Assembly (NCBI GenBank): GCA_013215275.1
Contig: JABSRF010000010.1
Location: 1 to 35,875, forward strand
Source of the DNA: Oligoflexales bacterium
Lineage (GTDB): Bacteria > Bdellovibrionota_B > Oligoflexia > Oligoflexales > Bog-1112
Direction of reading: 5' to 3'
DNA: 35,875 nucleotides
Below the pieces are notes generated by a model. It was not told the DNA's origin and did no database searches. It saw only the letters and a program-made list of their open reading frames with translations. Below are positions 12,655 through 25,671 of the stretch, piece after piece (within the stretch, counting starts at the first letter, position 1; every line of letters starts with the position of its first letter). Position numbers and translations under genes: made by a program.

Positions 12655-12674
12655 AAAACCTTCTCTAGGGTTTT
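12655..12674. terminator. Bidirectional terminator candidate between converging SH3 and M23 genes
   Basis: The arms AAAACCTT (12655-12662) and AGGGTTTT (12667-12674) pair with one G-T wobble around a CTCT loop. Read on the minus strand, the right arm ends in a T-run (GGTTTTTT). The element sits in the 10-bp gap between the two stop codons and overlaps the end of the M23 gene. Confidence 0.45.
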
Positions 12675-13168
12675 GGTGCTCGTAGGTATTTGAGAGGGTT
12701 CAGGGCTTCTTTATTTGCATTAAGGTACTCAAAATGAAGATGCTCTGTACTTGCGTTCCCAGTGCTTCCAGTTAGTGCTATGGTTTGACCCTTTCTAACG
12801 TAGCTATTTTTTCCAACTTTTAATTCAGAGCAGTGAGCGTAAAGACTAAAATGGTCCTTATGTTTTAAAATGATGCTAAGACCATAACCTGACATGCTAC
12901 CTGCAAAAACCACCTTACCCTTATCCACAGCATAGATGGAAGATCGGTTCGTGCCTTTTATATCGATCCCATTATGCATGCGGCCACTTCTATACCCATA
13001 AGGAGAAATAACCCTTCCCTCAGTCGGCCAAGTGAGGCCTGAGTTCGTTGAAAAGAGCAGGCCTTTGGGTTTTAAGCGATTTTTTTTGGCTGTCCCACCT
13101 GCGCAGGCTCCAAGTAAGATGCAGCTGGCAAAAGTGAGCATGCTATTACTGCAGGAATTTATGGTCAA
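12665..13168 (-). CDS. NlpD-like M23 (LytM) family lipoprotein
   Basis: This is a 167-residue lipoprotein: the signal ends in a perfect lipobox LGAC with Cys22. The M23/LytM domain spans about residues 45-165. The zinc ligands of active M23 enzymes are all present: His and Asp in HNGID, the His of YAHC, and the last His of HLHF. It could therefore cleave peptidoglycan cross-links, unlike E. coli NlpD, which is degenerate. There is no LysM domain. The start is a TTG at 13168 with GGAG 5 nt upstream; a later ATG lacks a Shine-Dalgarno. It follows surE by 20 bp, matching the common surE-nlpD order. It may act in daughter-cell separation or wall remodelling. Confidence 0.9.
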   Translation of the reverse strand: MTINSCSNSMLTFASCILLGACAGGTAKKNRLKPKGLLFSTNSGLTWPTEGRVISPYGYRSGRMHNGIDIKGTNRSSIYAVDKGKVVFAGSMSGYGLSIILKHKDHFSLYAHCSELKVGKNSYVRKGQTIALTGSTGNASTEHLHFEYLNANKEALNPLKYLRAPKP

Positions 13169-13188: not shown

Positions 13189-14097
13189 TTAAAAAAGGCC
13201 TTCAAACAACTCTGGAATTTTGCGGCTAAGCTGAGAGTTCGCTTCGCGATCCAAAAGTTCGGGTTTTAAGGCGCTGATTGCAACGAATCCATCGGCAACG
13301 GCATTGCAGTCTGACCCTGGGATATCCACAAAACGATGTGAGTCGGCGCCAATCCAGTAGTAAGGAAGGCCTCGCGGATCTTCTTTTCGCCAGTAGTGGT
13401 CATCGTAGATCCGGTTTCCACAGGTTGTAGACCTTACGCCTCGAACTTGTTCAAAGGGCCTAGCAGGAATGTTGACATTCAGCATCGTCCCTTCTTGAAG
13501 GTTTAAGTCTTTGCGTTTTTCTAGCAAAATTCTCGCTACCTTAGCGCTGGTCTCATAGTACAGGTCTTTTTGTCCGGGGCCATGGGCAGAAAATGCCATG
13601 GCTTTACAGCCATTTATGGTTCCTTCCATCGCAGCTGCAACGGTTCCAGAATAAAGGACATCAGTGCCTAAATTTCCGCCACGATTTATTCCACTCAGGA
13701 CCAGGTCTGGTTTTTCTTCTAGGATCGTATCAAGTGCAATTTTAACACAGTCCACAGGGGTTCCATCGACTTCGTAGATTTCTTCGCTATAAGGCTTAGG
13801 CTCAAGCTTTTGAATCCGAAGAGGCCGAGAAATGGTAAGGCAATGGCTGTTGGCTGAGCGTTCCATATGAGGAGCGACAATGGCAACCCTAGCAATTTGA
13901 GCTATTTCTTTTGCAAGTGCATGGATGCCTGGAGCATGAATACCGTCATCGTTTGAAATTAGTACGAATGGGAGCTGTGGCACAGGGTTCCTTTCCATGA
14001 ATGAATGATTCTGGGATGTAGGCCTTAGCCAGTTCAATAGGCGCCTAAATAGGGATAGACTAATGCCAAACGGTAGGCGTGGGGCCACATCCATCAT
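13189..14097 (-). CDS. surE: 5'/3'-nucleotidase SurE
   Basis: SurE is a metal-dependent survival nucleotidase/exopolyphosphatase acting on nucleoside monophosphates. The family blocks are clear: ISNDDGIHAPG near the start with the two metal-binding Asp residues, APHMERSANSH, DGTPVDCVKIA, and SGINRGGNLGTDVLYSGTV. With the ATG at 14097 the protein has 302 residues, including about 45 residues before the first core strand, longer than usual. An in-frame ATG at 13998 would remove most of this, but neither start has a Shine-Dalgarno sequence, so the true start is open. It is followed after 20 bp by the M23 lipoprotein; pcm and rpoS, common partners, are absent. Confidence 0.95.
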   Translation of the reverse strand: MMDVAPRLPFGISLSLFRRLLNWLRPTSQNHSFMERNPVPQLPFVLISNDDGIHAPGIHALAKEIAQIARVAIVAPHMERSANSHCLTISRPLRIQKLEPKPYSEEIYEVDGTPVDCVKIALDTILEEKPDLVLSGINRGGNLGTDVLYSGTVAAAMEGTINGCKAMAFSAHGPGQKDLYYETSAKVARILLEKRKDLNLQEGTMLNVNIPARPFEQVRGVRSTTCGNRIYDDHYWRKEDPRGLPYYWIGADSHRFVDIPGSDCNAVADGFVAISALKPELLDREANSQLSRKIPELFEGLF

Positions 14098-14208: not shown

Positions 14209-16176
14209 CTATAAGGGGTTAAATGAGAAGGGGTAATTCACCGTCACCGATGAGCCTCCGCGTGGTCTTGGAAAGCTCCAGCGCCTCACAACGCTGGTCA
14301 CACAACCGGTCATGGCACCATCTCTGATCGTGGAGTTTTTAACCCTAGCTGAAGAAACACGGCCGTTTGTGCCTACGATAAATTGGACATTGATTTTTCC
14401 TGAAGCATTTGGGGAGCGCTGTAAAAGCTTCTCGTAGCAGTGGCGAATTTGGTTGAGCTGAGCCCTAATGACCCCTAAAATTTCTTCTTGTGACAATCCA
14501 CCTGACACCAATGGGTCACCTGCTCTTACGTTAACAGAAACAGGCCTTTTACCAGAACCGAAGGCATTTCCTAGCCCTTTTCCTTTACCTGTCCCGACCA
14601 AAGAGCCTCTGCCTTGTCCGAAGCTATTGACAGCATTGTTTGACCCTCCAATGCCAACAGATTTTGCACCAGTTGCTGAACCGCCAAGGCCGAATGTCTT
14701 ACGGCCAGAGCCTGCGCCGCCTCCGCCACCACCCTGAGAGCTACGAAACTTGGTGTGAATGGCTCCAGGACCTGTTTTCGAGCTAATTTTACCAACGCCA
14801 ACTCCGAGTTTGCTTAGGTTTACTCCTGAGCTTTTGTTGTTTTTTACCCCAGCAACCCCTTTGAGGTTTCTTTTTTGGTTTCCTTTACGGACCCCACCGG
14901 TTTGTCTACCAGACCCAACCTTACCCCCGGCAGGTTTTTTCTGTTTTGAGGCAATTCCCTTGGGAGGGGGGGGGAGTGCTGGCTTTGGCTTTGGTTTGCT
15001 CAGGTTGTCTTGCATATTAGCCTTAGCCACCTTCTTCTCTTGGGGAGGTTTGACTTGTGGCTTTTCTTTCTCTACGACCTTGGTCGGCTCCACTGGTTTT
15101 GGAGCCGGTTTAGGTGGTTCTTTTGGGGGGGGAGGTGGTTTCTGCACCTCGGCAATTTTTACCACATCAGGCTTAGGTTTTTTTACTTTTTTTAGTTTTT
15201 CGGGAACGTGAACAATGGACCATAGGTCATCGGTATCTTCCTTTGCGTCCTTTGGATCAAGGCTCCACAGGGTCAGTGTGAATATGCTGAAGAACAGCAT
15301 GGTGATGCTTATAATGCCCATAAAAAATTGGTCTTTTGGACCTGAACGAGGCAGGTTTAATGAAGGTGGTCGCATGAACAAGAAGAAGTAACGAATGGCT
15401 CCATATTTGATATGGGCTATGTCTCTTCTGCCCATGCTATGGCTGCCACCTTCAACTTTTTCAACGCTTCCACCTCTCCTTAAGCGAGCCGTCATGGAAG
15501 GAAGTAGCTTGAGCTTATACCCATCATCCCGAAGCTTTGCCAGCACATAGCTGCTCACAGCCTCGTCGCCTGCTGCGATAAAATGGCTTTTGGTGGGGTC
15601 TCCAATCGTCACTTTCTCATAGTCTTTATAAGACGGGTGAAAATGCTCGACTTCAATGATGGTGTCTCCCCAATAAGCTACCACCTCGAGGACGTCTCCA
15701 CTGGGCTTAGCATCTTTGGGAGAAAACAGTAGGTCATCTTTTTGTTGCATTATTTGGTTTCGCTTAGCTTGGGTTCCTCCCCTTCTTTGCATAGGGGAAC
15801 TTTGTTTAGGCGACTTTCTTCCAGCGGAAGCAGCTTTTGCTTTGTGAGGACTTTCTGCAACTGGAGTCGGGCTTTCTTCCTTTCGCTGTTCAAACTTTAA
15901 TTTGACACCTGCAATGGAGATTTTGTCTCCAGGCTTAATTTTTACTTCGACTGGGATCTTCTTTCCGTTTACTTCTACCCCAATTTCGGACCCGAGATCG
16001 GTTATTTGCCAGCTACCATCTTCAATCTGCTCAAGGAGTGCGTGGATTGGTTCGACTCCCTGAGAAGGTAAGATAATTTGGTTGGACAGAAGGCTTCCAA
16101 TCATCAGGGGTGATTGGTCTAAATTGACCCTTTGTTCATCTTGACCTGGAAGTTTAAAACGAACTTCAAATGGCAT
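14209..16176 (-). CDS. GltG-like FHA/TonB-type trans-envelope motor protein (AgmX/PglI C-terminal domain)
   Basis: The 655-residue protein has an N-terminal FHA-fold domain (about residues 5-95), a cytoplasmic region containing VVAYWGDTIIEVEHF, one membrane helix (about 285-307), a Pro-rich stretch (PPPPPKEPPKPAPKP near 350), a Lys/Gly-rich linker (about 400-545), and a TonB-like AgmX/PglI C-terminal domain (about 555-655). The last has the conserved pair RHCYEKLL and GCVTSVVRRW, likely a disulfide. This order matches M. xanthus GltG, an inner-membrane protein that transmits motor work to the periplasm. The FHA core is degenerate: the binding Arg, Ser and Asn positions read Ser28, Glu42 and Ile65, and only His45 is kept. 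It is the last gene of the eight-gene motor operon. Poly-C tracts are described separately. Confidence 0.85.
   Translation of the reverse strand: MPFEVRFKLPGQDEQRVNLDQSPLMIGSLLSNQIILPSQGVEPIHALLEQIEDGSWQITDLGSEIGVEVNGKKIPVEVKIKPGDKISIAGVKLKFEQRKEESPTPVAESPHKAKAASAGRKSPKQSSPMQRRGGTQAKRNQIMQQKDDLLFSPKDAKPSGDVLEVVAYWGDTIIEVEHFHPSYKDYEKVTIGDPTKSHFIAAGDEAVSSYVLAKLRDDGYKLKLLPSMTARLRRGGSVEKVEGGSHSMGRRDIAHIKYGAIRYFFLFMRPPSLNLPRSGPKDQFFMGIISITMLFFSIFTLTLWSLDPKDAKEDTDDLWSIVHVPEKLKKVKKPKPDVVKIAEVQKPPPPPKEPPKPAPKPVEPTKVVEKEKPQVKPPQEKKVAKANMQDNLSKPKPKPALPPPPKGIASKQKKPAGGKVGSGRQTGGVRKGNQKRNLKGVAGVKNNKSSGVNLSKLGVGVGKISSKTGPGAIHTKFRSSQGGGGGGAGSGRKTFGLGGSATGAKSVGIGGSNNAVNSFGQGRGSLVGTGKGKGLGNAFGSGKRPVSVNVRAGDPLVSGGLSQEEILGVIRAQLNQIRHCYEKLLQRSPNASGKINVQFIVGTNGRVSSARVKNSTIRDGAMTGCVTSVVRRWSFPRPRGGSSVTVNYPFSFNPL
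14966..14974 (-). repeat. Poly-C(9) tract in the GltG-like gene
   Basis: Nine consecutive G on the plus strand (C on the coding strand) encode part of a short Pro run in the periplasmic linker. Slipped-strand mispairing would shift the frame before the TonB-like C-terminal domain. Confidence 0.6.
15125..15132 (-). repeat. Poly-C(8) tract in the GltG-like gene
   Basis: Eight consecutive G on the plus strand (C on the coding strand) lie in the codons for the PPPPPKEPP segment, just after the membrane helix. Confidence 0.6.
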
Positions 16177-16212
16177 AAAGAACCTTCATTACTTTAAATG
16201 GCCCACATGGTT

Positions 16213-17184
16213 TTATCGTACGGATTCCAAAACTTTGTATCCTCGATTGTCCCATGAATTTGGACCTCCTCGGGTGTTTAACGCTTTACTAATCAGTTGT
16301 TTGGCTTTGGCAATATTCTTATTAGACTGCCACTCATGAACGCCACAGTTAAATAAAGTTGGTTTGTGTTTTGGGTGGCTTTTAAGTAGTTTGTTGCAAA
16401 GCCGACTGGTTTCCTGGGTGTTGTTCATCAATCTATTTGCGACTAGGAGTCCCGACTCGGCAAACCAGTCTCCATCAACCTGGGAAAGAAATCTTTTCGT
16501 TGCTTCAAAATGCCCAAACATCAAACTGATATACCCTATATTAAGCAATGCAGGAACGTAGTTCGAATAAGCCTTAAGTGATTCCTTCCAGTGAGCAACT
16601 GCCTCTGGAATCCGTCCATCCCTCATAGCCAAAAGTGCAATAGCGTTGAATGCTCCTGCTTTCACCTTTTTGTTTTTTGCAAGCTTGAGGTCGTTGAGTA
16701 AGAAAGTTGCCATTCCATATTGGTTTTGTTGGATGGCAGCCACAGCTATCTCAAGCCTAGCTAACTCAGAAACCTTTTGATGCTTTGTTCCCTGACGAGT
16801 TATTTCAGCAAGTCGTCGCATGTGGTTCAAAAGCCGATTCAATGGAACCCGAGCAATCCTCTCTGCAGCAATCAAGCTCTCGAAGTTAGAGATGGTTTGC
16901 CCTTTAGCTCCTCGAGCCTGCTGGCTAATTTTGTTAGCATAAGCTGCTGCTTTGTTGACAGCAGCTATCCTTGAGGTAAGAGGATTGTTACTAAGGCTGT
17001 GAATGTAGGTACTTCCTGTTCTGACAGGCCCTGAGTCTCCCCCACCAAAGCTAGGTGGTGAGGCTGGCTCACTTTTCTTGACTGAGTCGAGCCTGTCACC
17101 TCGCTTTTCTGATGGGGCTGCAGACTTACAACCTCCTTCGAGTGCAATTAAGATGTAGATGGCTGCTATGAAATAGCCTCGCAT
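16213..17184 (-). CDS. GltE-like TPR lipoprotein
   Basis: This is a 323-residue, probably outer-membrane-attached TPR protein. The signal ends ALEGGC, placing a candidate lipid Cys at 19, although Glu at -3 departs from the usual lipobox. A low-complexity Ser/Pro/Gly linker follows (to about 60), then TPR-type helical repeats (about 95-300), clearest around EAVAHWKESLKAYSNYVPAL and the following ALLNIGYISLMFGHFEATK. Size, lipoprotein-like signal, TPRs and position directly before the GltG-like gene match M. xanthus AglT/GltE, an outer-membrane lipoprotein of the gliding machine. It starts 10 bp after the long TPR gene and is part of the motor operon. The specific orthology is inference. Confidence 0.75.
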   Translation of the reverse strand: MRGYFIAAIYILIALEGGCKSAAPSEKRGDRLDSVKKSEPASPPSFGGGDSGPVRTGSTYIHSLSNNPLTSRIAAVNKAAAYANKISQQARGAKGQTISNFESLIAAERIARVPLNRLLNHMRRLAEITRQGTKHQKVSELARLEIAVAAIQQNQYGMATFLLNDLKLAKNKKVKAGAFNAIALLAMRDGRIPEAVAHWKESLKAYSNYVPALLNIGYISLMFGHFEATKRFLSQVDGDWFAESGLLVANRLMNNTQETSRLCNKLLKSHPKHKPTLFNCGVHEWQSNKNIAKAKQLISKALNTRGGPNSWDNRGYKVLESVR

Positions 17185-17194
17185 GCACCTGTCC

Positions 17195-20100
17195 CTATCT
17201 CAATTGTGCCCTGACCTGTGAAGGTACTTCACTGCCAATAAAGTCTGGGCTGACCACGAGCTCTTCAAAACTGACTTTACGTTTAACAATTCGATTTAAT
17301 CCATTAAATATTTTAACAGACCAATGGTTATAGACTGTAAACCTTCGTGTTGTCTGCAAACCAGTGGTATAATATTCTTTTGCTTTTGCTTCTATCTGAT
17401 CCACTGAAGCTTGTAGCTGTTTGACAAGGTCTTCTCGCTTGACTCCATTGATATTTGGTGGTGATTTCAGCTGGCCTGCAAAGGATTCATATGATGATCC
17501 TAGCTGATAAAAAGCTGCAATGCCCCAATAAGAGTCCTGGGTAGAAAATACAGCCCCATATGCTTGTTCCAATTGAGCTAGCTTTCCTGTGATTAATTCT
17601 ATGGAAGATTGGAGCTTATCCACATTACCACCTTGGAGTCGATACCTTGAGAATTGATTTTGAAGGCCTTGAACTCCCTGAAAAGCAATCTCACCGATAT
17701 ACCTCAGAGCCTCACCGGATACCCCTCCACCACCACGGGCTGTGCGGTTGATTCCTTGAAGTGCATTTTGAGCTTGAGATCCTTTGCCATTGTAGGCTTT
17801 ATATACTTTGTAGTAGGCGATGATTCTTTGGTTCGGTGATAGCTTGAACTTGTTGATATAGTTCGAAAAAATGATCTTGGTCATGGTCGCGTACTGACGG
17901 CTTTTCCAGAGTGAATCTATAAGTTTTTCGAGTACAATAGCACCACCTGCTGGGTATCGCTTTGCGAAGTTTGTGCAGGTACTGACTGCTTTATTGCTAC
18001 CTAGAGCAATTTGCAATTCGCATGCTCTTTGCATGGCTCCTGCAGCCTCTTTTTGCTTAGGGTATTTATTGGCAAATATAAGGAAGTATGTGGAAGCTTG
18101 ACCAAAGTCCAAAATATCATCATTTAGCTTACCGAGTTGTAAGAGCGAACTGCTATACAAGCTCGATTTAGGATAAAGCTTTACGATCATTGCAAATGCA
18201 TTCATGGCTCCATTGAAGTTTCCTGCCTTAAGGTAATCCACCGCTGCATTATTCCAAAATTTGTCCGCATCAGCATCTTTAGGAAACTTTTTAGCTTGTG
18301 CTTCAAAAAGTTTTGCACGCTTGAGTTCAGACTTTTCAGCTGATATCTGTTCCAGTTGCATCCCTCTGAGTAGGTCATTTAGTTTTTTTCCGATCTTCCC
18401 TTTTTGATAAGCAGGTATGGATAAAAGCTTTCTAGCAGTTGAAGCAAGTTCTTTTGGATTATTTTGAAAAATCGGAATCAGATGCTCAACAGCAACCCTT
18501 CCTTCTTTTTGTGTGGAGTATTTTTTTGCTATGAGCCAGAGATACCTCACAGCAAGCTTCTTGTTTTGACTGCGAAAGTATATTTCACTCATGAACGTTT
18601 CGCAGTTCTTCACAGTCTTTTTGTCACCTGGATACCACTTCGTGTAGTAATTACAACCTTTAATGAAGTTGGTGGCCCTAACCGTTAAGGCTCGTGGAGG
18701 TTTGCGGAAGTCGGGTTTGAGTTTTAATAAAGCCTTTAACTCGGGAAGAAAGTCTTTATTATAAGAATCCAGCATGTTTTCAGCTGATCTTTTATGGATG
18801 TTTGCTTTAAGCTTACCCTTATCATTGAACACAAGTGTCTTATTTTTGCCCAAGAGTGCAATGCTTAGATAAGTTTGCCCAGCTTCTCGATAGTTTCCCT
18901 GGAAATAATCGATGTCTCCTAGGTACTCTTTGACTTCTGGGATTTCTCGGCTGTTAGGGTATCGTTTGATAAATAGTCGGTACCCCTTTTTCGCCTCATT
19001 AAATGCACGTTTGCTGTTAGTTTTTTGAGCGTCTTTATGAATTACCTTTGGGTAGTAAAGTAATAAACGCTTAATGTTCTCTTGTGCTTCTTTAACGATA
19101 CCGCGTTCGTTCCTTGATGCCCAAGTAGAACGTAAATTATAGTTGTTAACAAGTTTTTCAAGTTCGTTCCAAACCTGTTTGATATTACCGTCTTCGAAAT
19201 TTAAGGCCACAATTTCAGTTTGGCCATCAAATGCCTCTTGGCTGTTAGGGTATAGGCTGAGCAACCGTTTCCAGGCTCTGATGGATTGCTTAAATTTACC
19301 CTGTTCAGTAAACGTTTCAGCCAATAGCTTCAAAAGTTTAGCGATATACTGTTCGCCGCCGTTACGTTTGTAGAAGCGAATTGCTTCGTCAATTTTCTTT
19401 AGCTCGGCAAAGCTAAAGATCATATCACGCATGGCCTCTTCTTTGAGCCTGAGCCCTTTTCCACCCATCTTGTCTGAGTGAGTCACTGTTTTCTTCCAAG
19501 AGTCCAGTGATCGACTGTATTGTCCCAGGTTGTAATAACACCAACCCAATTTGAACAGGGCCCATCCGTAGCGTTTTGATCGTCTGTATTTAATTGCGGA
19601 CCGGTAATAATTAGCTGCGGTTCTAAAGTCGTTGCGGTCAAAATAGTAATCACCCAGTGAAAAATAAGAGTCACCAGCATAGCTGGATTTTGGGTACTGT
19701 TTGATGATTCTTAGGAATTCTTTTGAGGCTGCAGATTCTCTCCCTAGAAACTGGAGGGACAGAGCTCCATTGAAAGCAATGCTATCAGACTGCAGAGCTT
19801 TGGGGTATTCCTTTAAAATTGCTCGAGATAGCGAATAAACGCGACGCCAGTGGGAATTAGATTTTTTATTGTTTAGTTTAGGTTCAGCCCCTTTTCTGCC
19901 TCCCCTTGACCACTTTCTCCACTGCTGGTCGTAATACTCTTGCTCACCACTTGCAATGTAAGCAGACTGCTCAAGGGTCAGGTTTAAGATTCTTTCAAGC
20001 ATCTGTAAGCGAGCACCAGATTTCTTGGGCAGTTGTTTTACGGTTTTATTCAAATAGGATAAGGTTCTATCGATTCCTTTAATGAGGTTTTTTTCTTTCG

Positions 20101-20314
20101 TGTTGACGAGTACGGCAGCTTGATTGTACTGAGGCCTTGCAGCAGCTTTGTTTGAGCTGGGCTTTTTTCTTTTTATCCTCTTGACATTAACAGTGGCGCG
20201 ATCTGATTTTTTTCTTTTTGCTCTTAGCGCGCTGCTATCTTGGGCATAGGATGCTTCAAACCACCATGCCAAGGAAACAATCAAAAAATATGTCAGTCTG
20301 TTAACCATAGCCAC
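17195..20314 (-). CDS. GltD-like long periplasmic TPR protein
   Basis: The product has 1039 residues with a signal peptide (cleavage likely after ASYA, residue 24 or so), a basic linker rich in Lys/Arg, then many TPR-type repeats through most of its length. Clear examples contain ALFKLGWCYYNLGQYSRSL, YPKSSYAGDSYFSLGDYYF and AMNAFAMIVKLYPKSSLY. Repeats of this YPKS/LG-Y type are typical of YbgF/GltD-like periplasmic scaffolds. M. xanthus AgmU/GltD is similarly long (about 1200 residues), TPR-rich and periplasmic. It lies between the 508-residue TPR gene (11-bp gap) and the lipoprotein gene (10-bp gap). Likely role: a rod or scaffold spanning the periplasm between motor and outer-membrane parts. 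Confidence 0.8.
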   Translation of the reverse strand: MAMVNRLTYFLIVSLAWWFEASYAQDSSALRAKRKKSDRATVNVKRIKRKKPSSNKAAARPQYNQAAVLVNTKEKNLIKGIDRTLSYLNKTVKQLPKKSGARLQMLERILNLTLEQSAYIASGEQEYYDQQWRKWSRGGRKGAEPKLNNKKSNSHWRRVYSLSRAILKEYPKALQSDSIAFNGALSLQFLGRESAASKEFLRIIKQYPKSSYAGDSYFSLGDYYFDRNDFRTAANYYRSAIKYRRSKRYGWALFKLGWCYYNLGQYSRSLDSWKKTVTHSDKMGGKGLRLKEEAMRDMIFSFAELKKIDEAIRFYKRNGGEQYIAKLLKLLAETFTEQGKFKQSIRAWKRLLSLYPNSQEAFDGQTEIVALNFEDGNIKQVWNELEKLVNNYNLRSTWASRNERGIVKEAQENIKRLLLYYPKVIHKDAQKTNSKRAFNEAKKGYRLFIKRYPNSREIPEVKEYLGDIDYFQGNYREAGQTYLSIALLGKNKTLVFNDKGKLKANIHKRSAENMLDSYNKDFLPELKALLKLKPDFRKPPRALTVRATNFIKGCNYYTKWYPGDKKTVKNCETFMSEIYFRSQNKKLAVRYLWLIAKKYSTQKEGRVAVEHLIPIFQNNPKELASTARKLLSIPAYQKGKIGKKLNDLLRGMQLEQISAEKSELKRAKLFEAQAKKFPKDADADKFWNNAAVDYLKAGNFNGAMNAFAMIVKLYPKSSLYSSSLLQLGKLNDDILDFGQASTYFLIFANKYPKQKEAAGAMQRACELQIALGSNKAVSTCTNFAKRYPAGGAIVLEKLIDSLWKSRQYATMTKIIFSNYINKFKLSPNQRIIAYYKVYKAYNGKGSQAQNALQGINRTARGGGGVSGEALRYIGEIAFQGVQGLQNQFSRYRLQGGNVDKLQSSIELITGKLAQLEQAYGAVFSTQDSYWGIAAFYQLGSSYESFAGQLKSPPNINGVKREDLVKQLQASVDQIEAKAKEYYTTGLQTTRRFTVYNHWSVKIFNGLNRIVKRKVSFEELVVSPDFIGSEVPSQVRAQLR

Positions 20315-20325
20315 CTAATAGAGAC

Positions 20326-21852
20326 TTATTTCTTACACTTACTAGGGATATTGTAGACATAACCACCGAGTTCATCTTCCCAGTACTCACCTTCGAATGG
20401 CCAGTATTCCAAATCTTGACCGATTCTAAGAGACTGCATTCCCCCGATGAAATTTCCTTTCTTCGGAGCAGATTCAATATTTAATTTATCCCTTAATTTA
20501 TCAACTTTGCCCAACAAGAGCTCTGCAGTTATGAGCCTAGTTTGATTTGATAACTCAATAAGGTATTTGTAAAAACCGACCCCTTGCCTATATAGTCGCT
20601 TACCAGTGTCATTGATGGCAGCAGCTTTCTTTTTAGTTAAAAAACTCCGCAATGTTTTAAGCAGGCCGATAACTCTCCATTGGCCCGGTGAGTCGCTTAG
20701 CCTTGCTAGCTCCCTATCCGCATTTTGAATGGTGGCACCTGCTTGCTTGTAGGTATCCGTCCGGGACAGCGCATCCAAAATTGCCCAGGCATTTTGGTAT
20801 GACTTAAGGCTTCCTGTTCGATAGTAATACACATTGCGAAAGAATTTTTTGGGTTTGCGCTCGGTGCTAGCAAGTAGGGTTTTGATATCCTTCAAAACGG
20901 GCGCATAGCGCCTCTTAAACAGGCCCATGGACTCCTTAACCCTGTCATAACGACATAGTCTGAGGAAAGTGATAGCTTGAAGGATGAAGCTTTCAGGAAA
21001 AAACCTTCGCTCGAAAAAAGGTGAGTGTAAGGTGTGAATATTGCCTAAAGTATTGTTGGCCTTTTCCATCAAAAAGAAAGCCCATGATGCTTCAAAGAGT
21101 GCCTGGAGCCAGTTGTCAGACTGTCTAGGGATTTCAGCATAGTAGCGAATGGAATCTCGGTACCTACGAGTTTCATAATATATTCTAGCAATGTTAAGGT
21201 TCGATTGCTCTTGAAGCCAGGAGCCGTTTTTTACTTTATTTGATAATTCCCTGACTTTTTCAAAATAACGAATACCTTGCTTGTGCTTACCTGATAAATT
21301 GGCAATGACCCCGAGGTGAAATAGAGCTTTAATATAGTACTGGCTCGATGACTGGACCCGTTTAAAAAAGCTTTGAGCGCTCTTGTAACGGGTATTCCCA
21401 AAAGCTTCAACCCCTTTGTAGTAAAAATAGAATCCTCGGGCAGGCCCTGGAATGCTCGCTGGGTTAATCTTCGTTTTAAAAAGTTGAACCACATGAGATT
21501 GTCCAATGTTAACCCGGTTGTTGATTCTTCCAAGTGCTTCAAGCGCCTTGCGAAAAAATGGATTCGAAGACTTAGCTCCTCTTCTCACGATCTTTGAATA
21601 GTACATGGATGCTGAATAATATAACTCCATTTTTTCAAGGCTTTGACCGACGCCCCATTCCGACTTATTTTTTATTGATCTGGCTTTTTTACCGCGCGAT
21701 TTTTGCATGCTTTTGAAGAAATTTGTAGCTGCTCTAGCATAATCGTGAGATTTATAGTACTTTTTTGCAGCTTTGAAGGACGAAGCAGCCCATCCGGCAT
21801 TACTATATGCCAACAAGAGAGTGAGTCCAATTTTTACCGTTAGCGTTTTCAA
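20326..21852 (-). CDS. GltC-like periplasmic TPR protein
   Basis: This is a 508-residue protein with a signal peptide (cleavage probably after GWA, residue 22) and TPR-type repeats over the N-terminal 270 residues, beginning AKKYYKSHDYARAATNFFKS and including YKSAQSFFKRVQSSSQYYIKA. The C-terminal half is helical without obvious repeats and ends in an aromatic, acidic segment (LEYWPFEGEYWEDELGGY) followed by a basic tail. By size, repeats and place behind an outer-membrane barrel gene it resembles M. xanthus GltC, which sits with GltA/GltB. The gap to the preceding gene is 12 bp. The TPR and periplasm calls are good; the GltC assignment is tentative. Confidence 0.75.
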   Translation of the reverse strand: MKTLTVKIGLTLLLAYSNAGWAASSFKAAKKYYKSHDYARAATNFFKSMQKSRGKKARSIKNKSEWGVGQSLEKMELYYSASMYYSKIVRRGAKSSNPFFRKALEALGRINNRVNIGQSHVVQLFKTKINPASIPGPARGFYFYYKGVEAFGNTRYKSAQSFFKRVQSSSQYYIKALFHLGVIANLSGKHKQGIRYFEKVRELSNKVKNGSWLQEQSNLNIARIYYETRRYRDSIRYYAEIPRQSDNWLQALFEASWAFFLMEKANNTLGNIHTLHSPFFERRFFPESFILQAITFLRLCRYDRVKESMGLFKRRYAPVLKDIKTLLASTERKPKKFFRNVYYYRTGSLKSYQNAWAILDALSRTDTYKQAGATIQNADRELARLSDSPGQWRVIGLLKTLRSFLTKKKAAAINDTGKRLYRQGVGFYKYLIELSNQTRLITAELLLGKVDKLRDKLNIESAPKKGNFIGGMQSLRIGQDLEYWPFEGEYWEDELGGYVYNIPSKCKK

Positions 21853-21864
21853 TTTATCCTAAGC

Positions 21865-22644
21865 TTAAAAAAATCGTGAATATCCTATCTGCATTGTTAA
21901 ATTATAATGAATCGAATCAATGCTCTCAATGTCAGGGTCGTCTACACAGGTTCCATCAGCAGAACTAATTTGCAGTGAATGGTTTCTTAGGTTCCATTTA
22001 AAACTACTTTTTCTATCTAAAAAAAATCTTTGTCCAACTCCGACAGTGAAGGTAGGGTATTGGGCAATATAATCACTGCGTATTTGCAACTCTCCTTCAT
22101 TGTCATCACAGTGATCAAACTGATACTCTACACCGGTGGTTCCGACTCCACCTATCAAATAAGTATCAAAATAAATTAGCTTACCACTTGCTAATTGGTA
22201 CTTCCCATAAATGGGTGTCCACAGTAAGCTGCCAGAATAGATCGTCTTTGTTCTAATAATTTGGGTTTTGATATTAAAATCTTTCTCTAGAATCACCTTG
22301 TCTTCTTTGTTGATGGATGTGCCAAAGGTTGCACTGACCTCTAAGCCTAAAGCTTCAGTAAAGTGATAGGTGAGGATTCCAGATGCGAGGTAGGTGTATA
22401 TAAAGGTCTGATTGGTTATCACGACCCCTTCTGTCCCTAGTTCAAACTTTTTCCGTTTCGAAAAAAAACGGGGCCTGATGACTCTAATTTCAAAGTTGGT
22501 AAAGCGTTCGTCGTTGGCATATGAGGTGTCGATTGACTCAAAAGCAACAACAGAGGACAGGGTAATGATTACCAAAGCGAAGCATAGCTTTCGGATATCG
22601 AAATCAAAATAAAATGACTTTTTTCTCAATGCGGTCGCTTTCAT
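21865..22644 (-). CDS. Outer-membrane beta-barrel protein (GltA/GltB-like)
   Basis: The 259-residue protein has a signal sequence (hydrophobic core about residues 21-35, cleavage likely after TSYA) and then alternating amphipathic strands with many aromatic residues. It ends IGYSRFF, the terminal-Phe signature recognised by the BAM complex. The block VIRPRFFSKRKKFELG followed by YHFTEALGLEVSATFG resembles the small outer-membrane barrels common in myxobacteria and Bdellovibrionota. A Cys pair (around HCDDNEG and GTCVDD) may bridge loops. It is the fourth gene of the motor operon, 20 bp after the second TolR-like gene, and is the likely outer-membrane port or anchor of the complex. Confidence 0.8.
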   Translation of the reverse strand: MKATALRKKSFYFDFDIRKLCFALVIITLSSVVAFESIDTSYANDERFTNFEIRVIRPRFFSKRKKFELGTEGVVITNQTFIYTYLASGILTYHFTEALGLEVSATFGTSINKEDKVILEKDFNIKTQIIRTKTIYSGSLLWTPIYGKYQLASGKLIYFDTYLIGGVGTTGVEYQFDHCDDNEGELQIRSDYIAQYPTFTVGVGQRFFLDRKSSFKWNLRNHSLQISSADGTCVDDPDIESIDSIHYNLTMQIGYSRFF

Positions 22645-22664
22645 ACATTTGGCACAAAAAGCTG

Positions 22665-23150
22665 TTAACCTCGTAGCTTCGATACCATCAGTTTAAATTT
22701 AACAAAATCAGCCTGTTGAGCTGATAGCATGACTCGTTTTAGCAATTTGAATTTGTGCTTTTTATCAATTTCTACGGTTAAGGTGCCAGGCTTCTTTTTG
22801 TCTGTCTTGGAGAAACGTTTATTGGCTTCAGCAAGCTTTTCCAGCTCTAAAAACAGGTCATGTATAGCCCCTTGGGAACTATCTCGTTCTTGAACATCCT
22901 TGTTGATGAGGGTCACAATTTTTTTTCCATTTACCAATATTTCATTGACCCCTAAAACGATGGCAGGCACCTCGTCAAGTGAGTTGAGAGTGGCCGATTC
23001 AGGCAGCTCGGTACTTTCATTCAAGTCGTGACTCACAGGATCCGTAGAAAAGCTCATAAGGAGGAAGAGAATCAAGATACTAAAGATATCCAGCATGGGC
23101 ATAATATTTAGGGTTATCTGTTCTCCACCGTCATTGCCCACTGATGCCAT
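22665..23150 (-). CDS. ExbD/TolR family protein (AglS-like)
   Basis: This is a 161-residue ExbD/TolR-type protein with one N-terminal membrane helix (about residues 15-36) and a periplasmic domain. The proton-path Asp is Asp21 in NIMPMLDIFSIL, in the expected place. It would pair with the TolQ-like channel and the other TolR-like protein to form a proton-driven stator. M. xanthus AglR-AglQ-AglS has the same one-plus-two composition. Gaps of 20 bp on both sides place it in the operon. The periplasmic part is divergent, with a hydrophilic loop rich in Lys (KRFSKTDKKKPG). Confidence 0.9.
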   Translation of the reverse strand: MASVGNDGGEQITLNIMPMLDIFSILILFLLMSFSTDPVSHDLNESTELPESATLNSLDEVPAIVLGVNEILVNGKKIVTLINKDVQERDSSQGAIHDLFLELEKLAEANKRFSKTDKKKPGTLTVEIDKKHKFKLLKRVMLSAQQADFVKFKLMVSKLRG

Positions 23151-23170
23151 AATCTAACCCTTCCATAAAA

Positions 23171-23707
23171 TTACAGTACTACGCTACCCATGACGACCTT
23201 GGGGTATAACGAAGTCTCTATGCCTTGACCAGATTCTTGGGGGCTAAAGCCTGGGTCACCAGGAAATCTGAGTTTTATTTGATCTAAGACCTTAACAAGA
23301 TCCTCATAAAGTATCTCATCATCAACAAACAAAGTGACCTTGTCAGTTTCTTCATACTCATCTCTAAGCTCGATAAGCTTACTGTGCATCTCACCTAAAC
23401 CGTTTTCATCTCGGGAGAATTGTTGACGATTTTCATCGATGGGTGGCTTGGTGAAGGAGGTTGTTAGCTCTACCCTTTCCATCTCTACATCAATCTTCAC
23501 GTCCAAAAGTCTTTTACTTTCCAAATCTTGAGGGGGGGCAGCATTGGTTAGGAATGGTATTTGCACTTCAAGGATACCAATGGAGACGAAGACTGCTGTG
23601 AACAGGAGAAATGTGCATAGAAGAGAGAATATATCAATAAAAGGCATGACGTTTAAGTCAACTTCATCTTCCTTTATCGACACCATTTTTTTTTTGTGTC
23701 TAGCCAT
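23171..23707 (-). CDS. ExbD/TolR family protein (AglQ-like)
   Basis: This is a 178-residue TolR/ExbD-type protein: basic N-terminal tail, one membrane helix (about 19-44) and a periplasmic domain. Asp25 in NVMPFIDIFSLL is the conserved proton-path residue. The periplasmic part holds the usual TolR-like strand VTLFVDDEILYEDLVKVLD. Codons 5-8 include a run of nine A on the coding strand (AAA AAA AAA before ATG), which could slip. The start codon at 23707 lies 19 bp after the TolQ-like gene. With the second TolR-like protein it gives two non-identical partners, as in AglQ/AglS. Confidence 0.92.
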   Translation of the reverse strand: MARHKKKMVSIKEDEVDLNVMPFIDIFSLLCTFLLFTAVFVSIGILEVQIPFLTNAAPPQDLESKRLLDVKIDVEMERVELTTSFTKPPIDENRQQFSRDENGLGEMHSKLIELRDEYEETDKVTLFVDDEILYEDLVKVLDQIKLRFPGDPGFSPQESGQGIETSLYPKVVMGSVVL

Positions 23708-23726
23708 TATTTGATCCTAAATAGAC

Positions 23727-24398
23727 CTATCTTGATTTATCCTGATAGCCTTTTATCTTCATTTTTCTTGTGAAAAGTAGATCTGTGAGCCTAGCAACAT
23801 TCTGATTAATATCATTGACAATAGAGTGTTGTTTCATCATCAGAAACCCGTGAGCCAGGAGACAAACTAATGCGGTCCCTAGACCGAAGGAGGTTGCTGT
23901 CAATGCTTCTGATATACCTTCTGCTAAGATAGTTTGCTTCTGGGCTCCTGTTGCTCGAGCAGCACCTCCAAACGAGTGCATTAGCCCAAAGATTGTACCT
24001 AGAAGTCCAAGTAGTGTCGCGACATTGGCGCAAGTGCCTAAAAAACCTACCGATTTGGTTACTTTCGGGATCACAGCTAAAGTGGCGTGGTTCATCGCAT
24101 TTTCTATCTCTTCTGAAGTATCGTTTGCTCGTTTGAGACCCTCAGATAGTACATAAGGGAGTAATTTTGGCCTAGCTTTCTTACATAGCCTGATTGCATT
24201 CTCTATTGAGTTATTCATAACCATTTTTTGCACTGCAGCCATAAAACCTGAGCTGTTTGCAAGGTCATACTGCAACCAATACCGATATGATCTTTCTATT
24301 ATGACGGCAATAGAAACAAGGAGGACAAAAAGTATTCCACTCATTACTAAGGTTCCACCTTGGTGGAACAAACGAGCAAGACTGTCTATAAAATCCAT
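23727..24398 (-). CDS. MotA/TolQ/ExbB proton channel protein (AglR-like)
   Basis: The 223-residue protein has three membrane helices (about 15-34, 117-140, 165-190) with the family blocks LLGLLGTIFGLM in the second and ISEALTATSFGLGTALV in the third. It forms the proton channel of a stator with the two TolR-like proteins. The start ATG at 24398 has a strong GGAGG 6 nt upstream. It is the first gene of the eight-gene operon and follows a good promoter match at 24565-24594, leaving a leader of about 160 nt. By composition of the operon the closest functional match is AglR of the gliding motor rather than TolQ of the Tol-Pal system, since no tolA, tolB or pal follows. Confidence 0.93.
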   Translation of the reverse strand: MDFIDSLARLFHQGGTLVMSGILFVLLVSIAVIIERSYRYWLQYDLANSSGFMAAVQKMVMNNSIENAIRLCKKARPKLLPYVLSEGLKRANDTSEEIENAMNHATLAVIPKVTKSVGFLGTCANVATLLGLLGTIFGLMHSFGGAARATGAQKQTILAEGISEALTATSFGLGTALVCLLAHGFLMMKQHSIVNDINQNVARLTDLLFTRKMKIKGYQDKSR

Positions 24399-24702
24399 TT
24401 AATTCCTCCGATGAGCTGTTCTCATGCCTACTTGCGTTGTTGATTGAATGTTGAATGAAAATTCCAGGCTGTTAGTTTATTGTGTAATGAGCCCTAACTA
24501 ATACCTTTTATTCTCACTTTTTTAAATAAATTAATGCTTATAAAGAATTAGCGTTGTTATCATAATTTTACGGAGGTTTTTCAAGTAATGTCAACTGGAG
24601 GGAAATGCATACGAAAATACTAATGACCTTAATTTTACGCTATAATCTAGTTAGAACGGATTTATAGTAAATGGAAAAAACCTCTAGAAATAGTTAGTAA
24701 AC
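24399..24702. other. Divergent intergenic region of motor operon and HATPase regulator
   Basis: This 304-bp AT-rich region holds no gene. On the minus strand it carries the motor-operon promoter candidate (24565-24594) and a leader of about 160 nt. On the plus strand a perfect TATAAT at 24641-24646 lies 57 bp before the regulator start but has no good -35 at the right distance. I see no further strong dyad or repeat. Confidence 0.5.
24565..24594 (-). promoter_or_regulatory. Sigma70-type promoter of the motor operon
   Basis: On the minus strand TTGACA (24589-24594) and TAAAAT (24565-24570) are 18 bp apart, a consensus -35 and a 5/6 -10. Transcription would begin near 24558 and leave about 160 nt before the TolQ-like start. 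Confidence 0.55.
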
Positions 24703-25671
24703 ATGAAAAATAAAATATTATTCATTGAGCTTTCGACTAAAAAACCTTTTCCGAAAGAATCGACTCTCAGAATCATAACTAGTGGATATGATAATACTCT
24801 TGAAAGAGATGTAGACAAGGCCCTGGCTCGAATTAATAGTGAGTCTGATATTTCAGTAATGGTTATCAATGATGCAGTAGAGGAAGTCTTTATCTCATAT
24901 AGGAAAAAATTTCCTAATGGAACCACGATCCTTGTGACAGCCGGTACGATGGACGAGTATGCTGCATCCTTATCTTATCGTGAAGAATTATTAGTTGATC
25001 ATGTGATTGCCAACTCGGAAAATTCTGACTGGCTCATAGGCGATTTAAGGTCGACCTTACAGAAGCTGATTAGTGGGGATATATTTGGTCTTGATAAATA
25101 CCTCCTTCCTAGCACAAAAGTACACACCCGCACCGTAACAGATTCCATGTGTCGTAGTACTTTAAATAATGAAGTTGCTGAGTTTGCAGAGTTTCAAAAG
25201 CTAGGAAGCCATATATCAAAACTGGCTTACGGTATTTCTGAGGAGCTTTTGATGAACGCTATTTACGATGCGCCTGTGGATGAAGAGGGGAATAGCCTAT
25301 ATGCTGGAGTTCACCGATCAAATAAGGTTAATTTAAAACCAAATGAGTACTCTGAGTTGAGTTTTGCTTGTGATGGACAAACCCTAGCGATTGCTGTCTG
25401 TGATCCTTTTGGAAGCCTTAAAAAAGAAAAGTTCCACAACTACATCAAAAAAGTGGTGAGGCGGCATGAGGGAATTAAGATCATTGACCACAAAAAAGGG
25501 GGCGCTGGTCTTGGCCTTTTTAAAATTCTTTATAGTTGCCATGCATTAATTTGCAATAGTATGCCGAATAAGAAAACCGAAGTTATCTCACTGATTAACA
25601 TACATCAACAGATACGAGACTTTTCAAAAATGGCCAGATCTCTTCATTATTTCGTAGCCAATTCAGGCTGA
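24703..25671 (+). CDS. Pseudo-receiver protein with anti-sigma-type HATPase domain
   Basis: This is a 322-residue soluble regulator. The N-terminal 125 residues look like a response-regulator fold (strands KILFIEL, VMVIND, TILVTAG) with a reduced acidic pocket; Asn56-Asp57 end the third strand. The C-terminal domain (about 150-310) is an ATP-binding GHKL/HATPase fold: N-box EELLMN at 180-185, DPFGSL as the first G motif, and GGAGLGL at 266-271. There is no His phosphoacceptor or dimerisation domain, so it is more like RsbW/SpoIIAB-type switch kinases than a sensor kinase. It is transcribed away from the motor operon. A regulatory link to the motor is plausible from position only. Confidence 0.75.
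   Translation: MKNKILFIELSTKKPFPKESTLRIITSGYDNTLERDVDKALARINSESDISVMVINDAVEEVFISYRKKFPNGTTILVTAGTMDEYAASLSYREELLVDHVIANSENSDWLIGDLRSTLQKLISGDIFGLDKYLLPSTKVHTRTVTDSMCRSTLNNEVAEFAEFQKLGSHISKLAYGISEELLMNAIYDAPVDEEGNSLYAGVHRSNKVNLKPNEYSELSFACDGQTLAIAVCDPFGSLKKEKFHNYIKKVVRRHEGIKIIDHKKGGAGLGLFKILYSCHALICNSMPNKKTEVISLINIHQQIRDFSKMARSLHYFVANSG

Follow-up and report, generated by a model that had tools for sequence, protein, structure and literature searches.

An eight-gene Agl-Glt-type operon of Oligoflexia, probably encoding a proton-driven trans-envelope machine

The contig JABSRF010000010.1 of an Oligoflexales bacterium (assembly GCA_013215275.1), analysed over its 35,875 nucleotides and referred to below as the window, carries an operon of eight open reading frames, all on the minus strand at positions 14209-24398, which probably encodes an Oligoflexia-type Agl-Glt core machine, that is, a proton-driven trans-envelope conveyor. 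This identity is favoured because of the Glt family matches of its envelope proteins, the placement of its TolQ-like channel, the fixed gene order, the retained channel residues, the presence of a barrel, the co-occurrence with a GltF-like gene, and the existence of a separate TolQ-like gene in the same genome. The first-pass annotation had described a compact Agl-Glt-like operon with gaps of 10-36 base pairs (bp), and the seven intergenic gaps indeed measure 36, 10, 11, 12, 20, 20, and 19 bp. Its part list (a TolQ-like protein, two TolR-like proteins, an outer membrane barrel, two long TPR proteins, a TPR lipoprotein, and an FHA/TonB-type arm) was borne out by Pfam and NCBIfam matches, the lipobox being weak. 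Domain calls were made with these two libraries, the Glt assignments were judged by the NCBIfam models with their cut-offs, and hidden Markov models (HMMs) built in this analysis from the eight proteins were used for synteny.

The motor set is of the AglR-Q-S type, with a single MotA_ExbB protein and a pair of ExbD proteins. A tree built from 50 TolQ-type proteins places the 35 Glt-linked sequences (27 of this operon type, 2 from Bdellovibrionia, and 6 from Myxococcota) on one side of a branch supported at 100/99, and the 15 TolQ/ExbB-type sequences, among them E. coli TolQ, E. coli ExbB, and a TolQ-like gene of the analysed genome itself (contig C698; 210 bits to TolQ), lie on the opposite side. 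A constraint grouping the operon channel with the TolQ/ExbB sequences was rejected (approximately unbiased (AU) test, p-AU 0.002), and a wider TolQ-type tree agrees with the Glt-linked placement. Thus the first-pass claim of an Agl-Glt-type machine stands, since the channel does not group with TolQ or ExbB and GltC, GltG, and the barrel do show similarity to Glt families. Thr135 and Thr169 of the channel align with T145 and T178 of E. coli TolQ, while Asp25 of stator 1 and Asp21 of stator 2 both align with Asp23 of E. coli TolR; the retention of these residues suggests an energised motor. The aglQ D28N substitution of M. xanthus abolishes proton conductance and movement, and AglR of that species binds both GltG and NfsG (PMC3858216).

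Profile searches connected GltC, GltG, and the barrel with Glt families, and all core-complex genes (the motor, GltC, GltG, and the GltD- and GltE-like genes) are placed within a single genomic region. The NF033756 match of the GltC homologue spans residues 155-507 and falls short of the 450-bit equivalog cut-off; as the equivalog cut-offs were not reached, GltC and GltG are called homologues and not equivalogs. The GltG-like arm is composed of a cytoplasmic FHA domain, one membrane span (read from the sequence), a Pro/Gly-rich stretch, and an AgmX/PglI-TonB-like C-terminus, whose myxo_SS_tail match reaches 105.6 bits against a cut-off of 40. The GltD label is based on position, length, and our own HMM, because public libraries give generic TPR matches only; the same HMM match and the position after gltC recur in Bdellovibrionia and Myxococcota loci. 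In the GltE-like protein the lipobox reads LEGGC, a weak call, while the orthologues possess canonical forms (LSAC, LSSC, LASC, and similar). The barrel was modelled by AlphaFold2 with eight strands (mean predicted local distance difference test score, pLDDT, 87.5), and in the barrel tree it groups with the barrel directly preceding gltC in Bdellovibrionia and Anaeromyxobacter, with weak support (Shimodaira-Hasegawa-like approximate likelihood ratio test 88). The M. xanthus barrels GltA and GltB are paralogues, and both bind GltC (PMC4488436); the genome analysed here has one barrel in the operon and a second OMP_myx_plus barrel on contig C53, either of which may correspond to GltA or to GltB.

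A GltC scan returned 78 related loci, the nearest of which belong to Oligoflexales, Pseudobacteriovorax, and Silvanigrellales metagenome-assembled genomes, so that the genome studied here probably falls in the Oligoflexia. According to the eight HMMs, the order Q-R-R-barrel-C-D-E-G was kept without a break in 24 complete class loci (L014-L019, L022-L026, L028-L032, L035, L036, L167, L170, L171, L174, L175, and L177), a count in which L036 and L171, apparently one contig, are both included, and no order breaks were seen in the class loci truncated by contig ends. Because the order is identical in 24 complete relative loci, the eight-gene arrangement is far beyond chance. A GltC match was present in 48 of 58 class genomes, and a search for GltC homologues on plasmids found none. 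In the Bdellovibrionia loci L038, L041, and L047 the order is barrel-barrel-C-D-E-G-Q-R-R, L047 being without a GltE call. The Myxococcota loci mostly include glt genes without the motor, which is present in some Anaeromyxobacter-type and Lujinxingia loci (L182, L183, L202, and L204-L206); the class search starting from an Anaeromyxobacter genome covered three genomes. As a separate observation, both GltC and the GltF-like gene described below were undetected in genus g30 (G056-G063), G014, and G015, and MglA is mostly retained in g30 despite this apparent loss of the whole machine.

Table 1. Features of the operon and of its flanks (window coordinates).
Feature	Position	Strand	Evidence or remark
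M23 peptidase (NlpD/ActS-like), downstream, co-oriented	12665..13168	-	PF01551 2e-26
SurE, downstream neighbour, probably housekeeping	13189..14097	-	PF01975 4e-61
GltG-like arm, 655 amino acids	14209..16176	-	FHA 2e-11, TonB_C 2e-5, GltG 9e-43
GltE-like TPR protein, likely lipoprotein, 323 amino acids	16213..17184	-	NF033758 5e-4 (weak)
GltD-like long periplasmic TPR protein, 1039 amino acids, GTG start	17195..20314	-	generic TPR matches; position; HMM
GltC homologue, periplasmic TPR protein, 508 amino acids, TTG start	20326..21852	-	NF033756 8e-58
8-stranded outer membrane barrel, GltA-like position upstream of gltC, 259 amino acids	21865..22644	-	OMP_myx_plus 92.7 bits, cut-off 60
TolR/AglQ-AglS-like stator 2, 161 amino acids	22665..23150	-	ExbD 2e-13
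TolR/AglQ-AglS-like stator 1, 178 amino acids	23171..23707	-	ExbD 4e-14
TolQ/AglR-like proton-channel subunit, 223 amino acids	23727..24398	-	MotA_ExbB 2e-24; Glt-linked clade
Intergenic region, divergent gene / tolQ-like gene	24399..24702	.	promoter-like TTGACA-18-TAAAAT at 24594-24565 (-)
Divergent conserved gene, 322 amino acids: pseudo-receiver and SpoIIAB/RsbW-like GHKL kinase domain	24703..25671	+	candidate regulator

The partners of the machine were sought in the rest of the genome, a 710-contig assembly that is 94% complete. The first-pass annotation had listed GltF, GltH-K, and MglA-type partners as absent from the window and the machine as possibly minimal; this absence was partly an artefact of the window, from which alone it had been deduced. 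An MglA homologue was found on contig C30 and confirmed against solved MglA chains (E=7e-51), which overturns the claim for MglA; this protein has PAK in place of the PGQ of its M. xanthus counterpart. Across the class MglA was present in 37 of 44 genomes with GltC and in 7 of 10 without it (p=0.37), and in the absence of co-occurrence MglA was rejected as an obligate partner. The absence of GltF is weakened by a small GltF/CglF-like protein encoded on contig C667 (L208:8370-8741), which was matched with E=1.5e-6 at 28 bits against a cut-off of 90. Among the class genomes, such a gene accompanies GltC in 42 of 44 cases and was detected in none of the 10 genomes that lack GltC (kinship uncorrected), the matches in genomes with two GltC clusters belonging partly to the second cluster. 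It is located away from the operon in a common neighbourhood in at least L208 (the genome studied here), L209, L213, L214, and L216; on C667 it lies among genes for a thioredoxin-like protein, a TIGR04552 protein, and a protein with weak similarity to TolB. The view that the machine is minimal because partners are lacking was consequently rejected by the genome searches as regards MglA and weakened as regards GltF and the second barrel; the minimal form is not established, as these three lie elsewhere in the genome and no search for GltH-K was made. The machine is probably helped by the unlinked GltF/CglF-like protein, perhaps by the second barrel, and by MglA.

The GltG/GltJ tail family also occurs on contigs C612, C199, and C342 of the same genome. 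On C612 (L104:10573-14067) a MotA_ExbB channel stands beside a protein bearing the AgmX/PglI tail and two short membrane proteins; no Glt TPR genes were recognised in this cluster, and its channel forms a long branch in the wider tree. Contig C64 (L117:7432-8055) encodes a Sar1-type GTPase of the Arf family (2.7e-61 to yeast SAR1) together with bacterial genes for an S49 protease, a reductase, and a transporter; no match to this GTPase was found among 53 other class genomes, and it is regarded as either a recent transfer from a eukaryote or part of a chimeric contig.

Many class genomes contain an additional, weaker GltC match. In all five such places that were read (L168, L169, L172, L173, and L176) it belongs to a barrel-GltC-GltD-GltE cluster, beside which neither a motor nor GltG was recognised; in L168 and L173, the two read in detail, a CglF-like gene follows. 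A search of the genome studied here for a second GltC found none. By analogy with Nfs, which borrows AglRQS, this second cluster may be powered by the motor of the operon.

Upstream of the operon the divergent gene is kept beside the tolQ-like gene in 18 of 32 class loci. Its product has no Pfam or NCBIfam matches and represents an uncatalogued conserved family, for which the AlphaFold2 model (pLDDT 88) consists of a receiver-like domain and, after it, a GHKL kinase domain that is closest in Foldseek to SpoIIAB/RsbW (1l0o, E=2e-5). Because the expected phospho-Asp position, where strand 3 ends, holds an invariant Asn56, the modelled receiver is probably not phosphorylated, and the simplest guess is that the protein acts as a partner-switch regulator of the operon. 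The promoter-like site between the two genes matches at 11 of 12 positions; it is treated as suggestive, because the number of such sites in the region is no higher than in shuffled sequences. Of the 32 class loci, 22 show linkage of the downstream M23 peptidase to the operon and 10 show linkage of SurE. The adjacency of SurE and an NlpD-type peptidase is a frequent housekeeping pair, and for this reason the two genes were not counted as machine parts.

The motor, GltC, and GltG of the operon are kin to the Agl-Glt family, and from this kinship a course of action can be proposed. The TolQ-TolR-TolR trio would form a proton-driven inner membrane motor, which proton flow would turn or stroke; GltG, whose FHA domain faces the cytoplasm and whose TonB-like end lies in the periplasm, would take up the motor force and hand it on, by way of GltD, GltE, and GltC as the TPR proteins of the periplasm, to the outer membrane barrel, and in such a way a surface component may be dragged or rotated along the cell. 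The first of these steps is supported by the conserved residues and the later ones by homology with M. xanthus, so that proton drive, force transfer from AglR to GltG, and surface transport are put forward by analogy.

Several points weigh against this interpretation. The GltC and GltG scores are far under the NCBI equivalog cut-offs, and the GltD and GltE assignments are mainly positional. The ten genomes without GltC may reflect just two or three losses. The M. xanthus machine requires GltH-K, none of which is present in the operon, a genome-wide search not having been made, and a literature search for functional data on any member of the class found none.

Surface polymer transport and gliding are the two known outputs of the Agl-Glt family. 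That the machine moves or compacts a surface polymer or protein without cell movement, as Nfs does, with the SpoIIAB-like kinase tying it to cell state, is a serious possibility, put at a little short of even. It agrees with the Nfs precedent, with the published idea of a basal transport machine (PMC3858216), with the motor-less second glt cluster of many relatives, and with the conserved divergent regulator; however, no exo-like polysaccharide genes adjoin the operon, its flanks are mostly housekeeping, and no conserved cargo gene is placed beside it. A true gliding motor with MglA as its partner, on the model of M. xanthus and perhaps of Bdellovibrio, is conceivable but on balance doubtful. 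The MglA homologue, the GltF-like protein, and the second barrel would fit it, and Bdellovibrio glides without GltH-K (PMC3169522), but MglA does not track GltC across the class, its copy here has lost the PGQ motif, MglA serves type IV pili too, and core complexes are found in bacteria without known gliding (PMC3169522). A more specific proposal, in which the Oligoflexia core serves the whole class as a surface transporter separate from gliding, drives the second, motor-less cluster in trans, and is switched by the divergent pseudo-receiver/SpoIIAB-like kinase, is speculative and rather unlikely to hold in full. Finally, a Tol-Pal or Ton/ExbBD system whose accessory proteins are unusual is highly improbable, for although the TolQ/TolR and TonB_C domain matches speak for it, the TolQ tree and the AU test reject this identity unless long branches mislead the tree, neither TolQ orthology with tolA-tolB-pal linkage nor ExbB orthology was found for the operon, which contains no TolB, Pal, or TolA, and a separate TolQ-like gene is available on C698.

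The Agl-Glt core itself has been described before. In Luciano et al. 2011 a seven-gene core of aglRQS with gltC, D, E, and G was reported in single regions of non-Deltaproteobacteria and Geobacter, together with four expanded sets in Bdellovibrio, and was understood as an ancestral core to which gliding parts were added later (PMC3169522); in Wartel et al. 2013 it was proposed to be a basal machine that transports different cargoes (PMC3858216). A one-operon core with open cargo is therefore not original to this analysis. A literature search on Oligoflexia Glt systems found no paper, and, as far as the searched literature shows, there is no earlier description of the layout fixed across the class, of the unlinked GltF-like gene, or of the SpoIIAB-like neighbour. 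What the stand-alone core does has been an open question since 2011, one that a fixed eight-gene operon in a class with cultured genera (Oligoflexus and Pseudobacteriovorax) makes testable, the divergent regulator and the unlinked GltF-like gene being concrete new handles on it.

Compared with the published core complex, which has the same seven families in one locus as a motor with a simplified Glt apparatus, the operon described here adds the GltA-like barrel (OMP_myx_plus), while the published core of non-Deltaproteobacteria and Geobacter includes one further gene, for which Myxococcales and Bdellovibrionales have no homologues (PMC3169522). With the M. xanthus Agl-Glt gliding machine it shares AglR, Q, and S, GltC, GltG, and GltA/B homologues, and GltD and GltE by position, and outside the operon the genome has an MglA homologue and a putative GltF-like one; it differs in being one operon instead of three loci (G1, G2, and M1), in having no GltF within that operon, and in GltC and GltG scores under the equivalog cut-offs. 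The Bdellovibrio Glt clusters (Bd0828-0838 and three others) likewise unite Glt and motor genes in one locus, but there two barrels precede gltC and the motor follows gltG, whereas here a single barrel is present and the motor comes first. The M. xanthus Nfs spore-coat machine is a paralogous Glt apparatus that is driven by AglRQS and acts on a surface polymer; it borrows its motor in trans, while in the Oligoflexia operon the motor genes take the lead.

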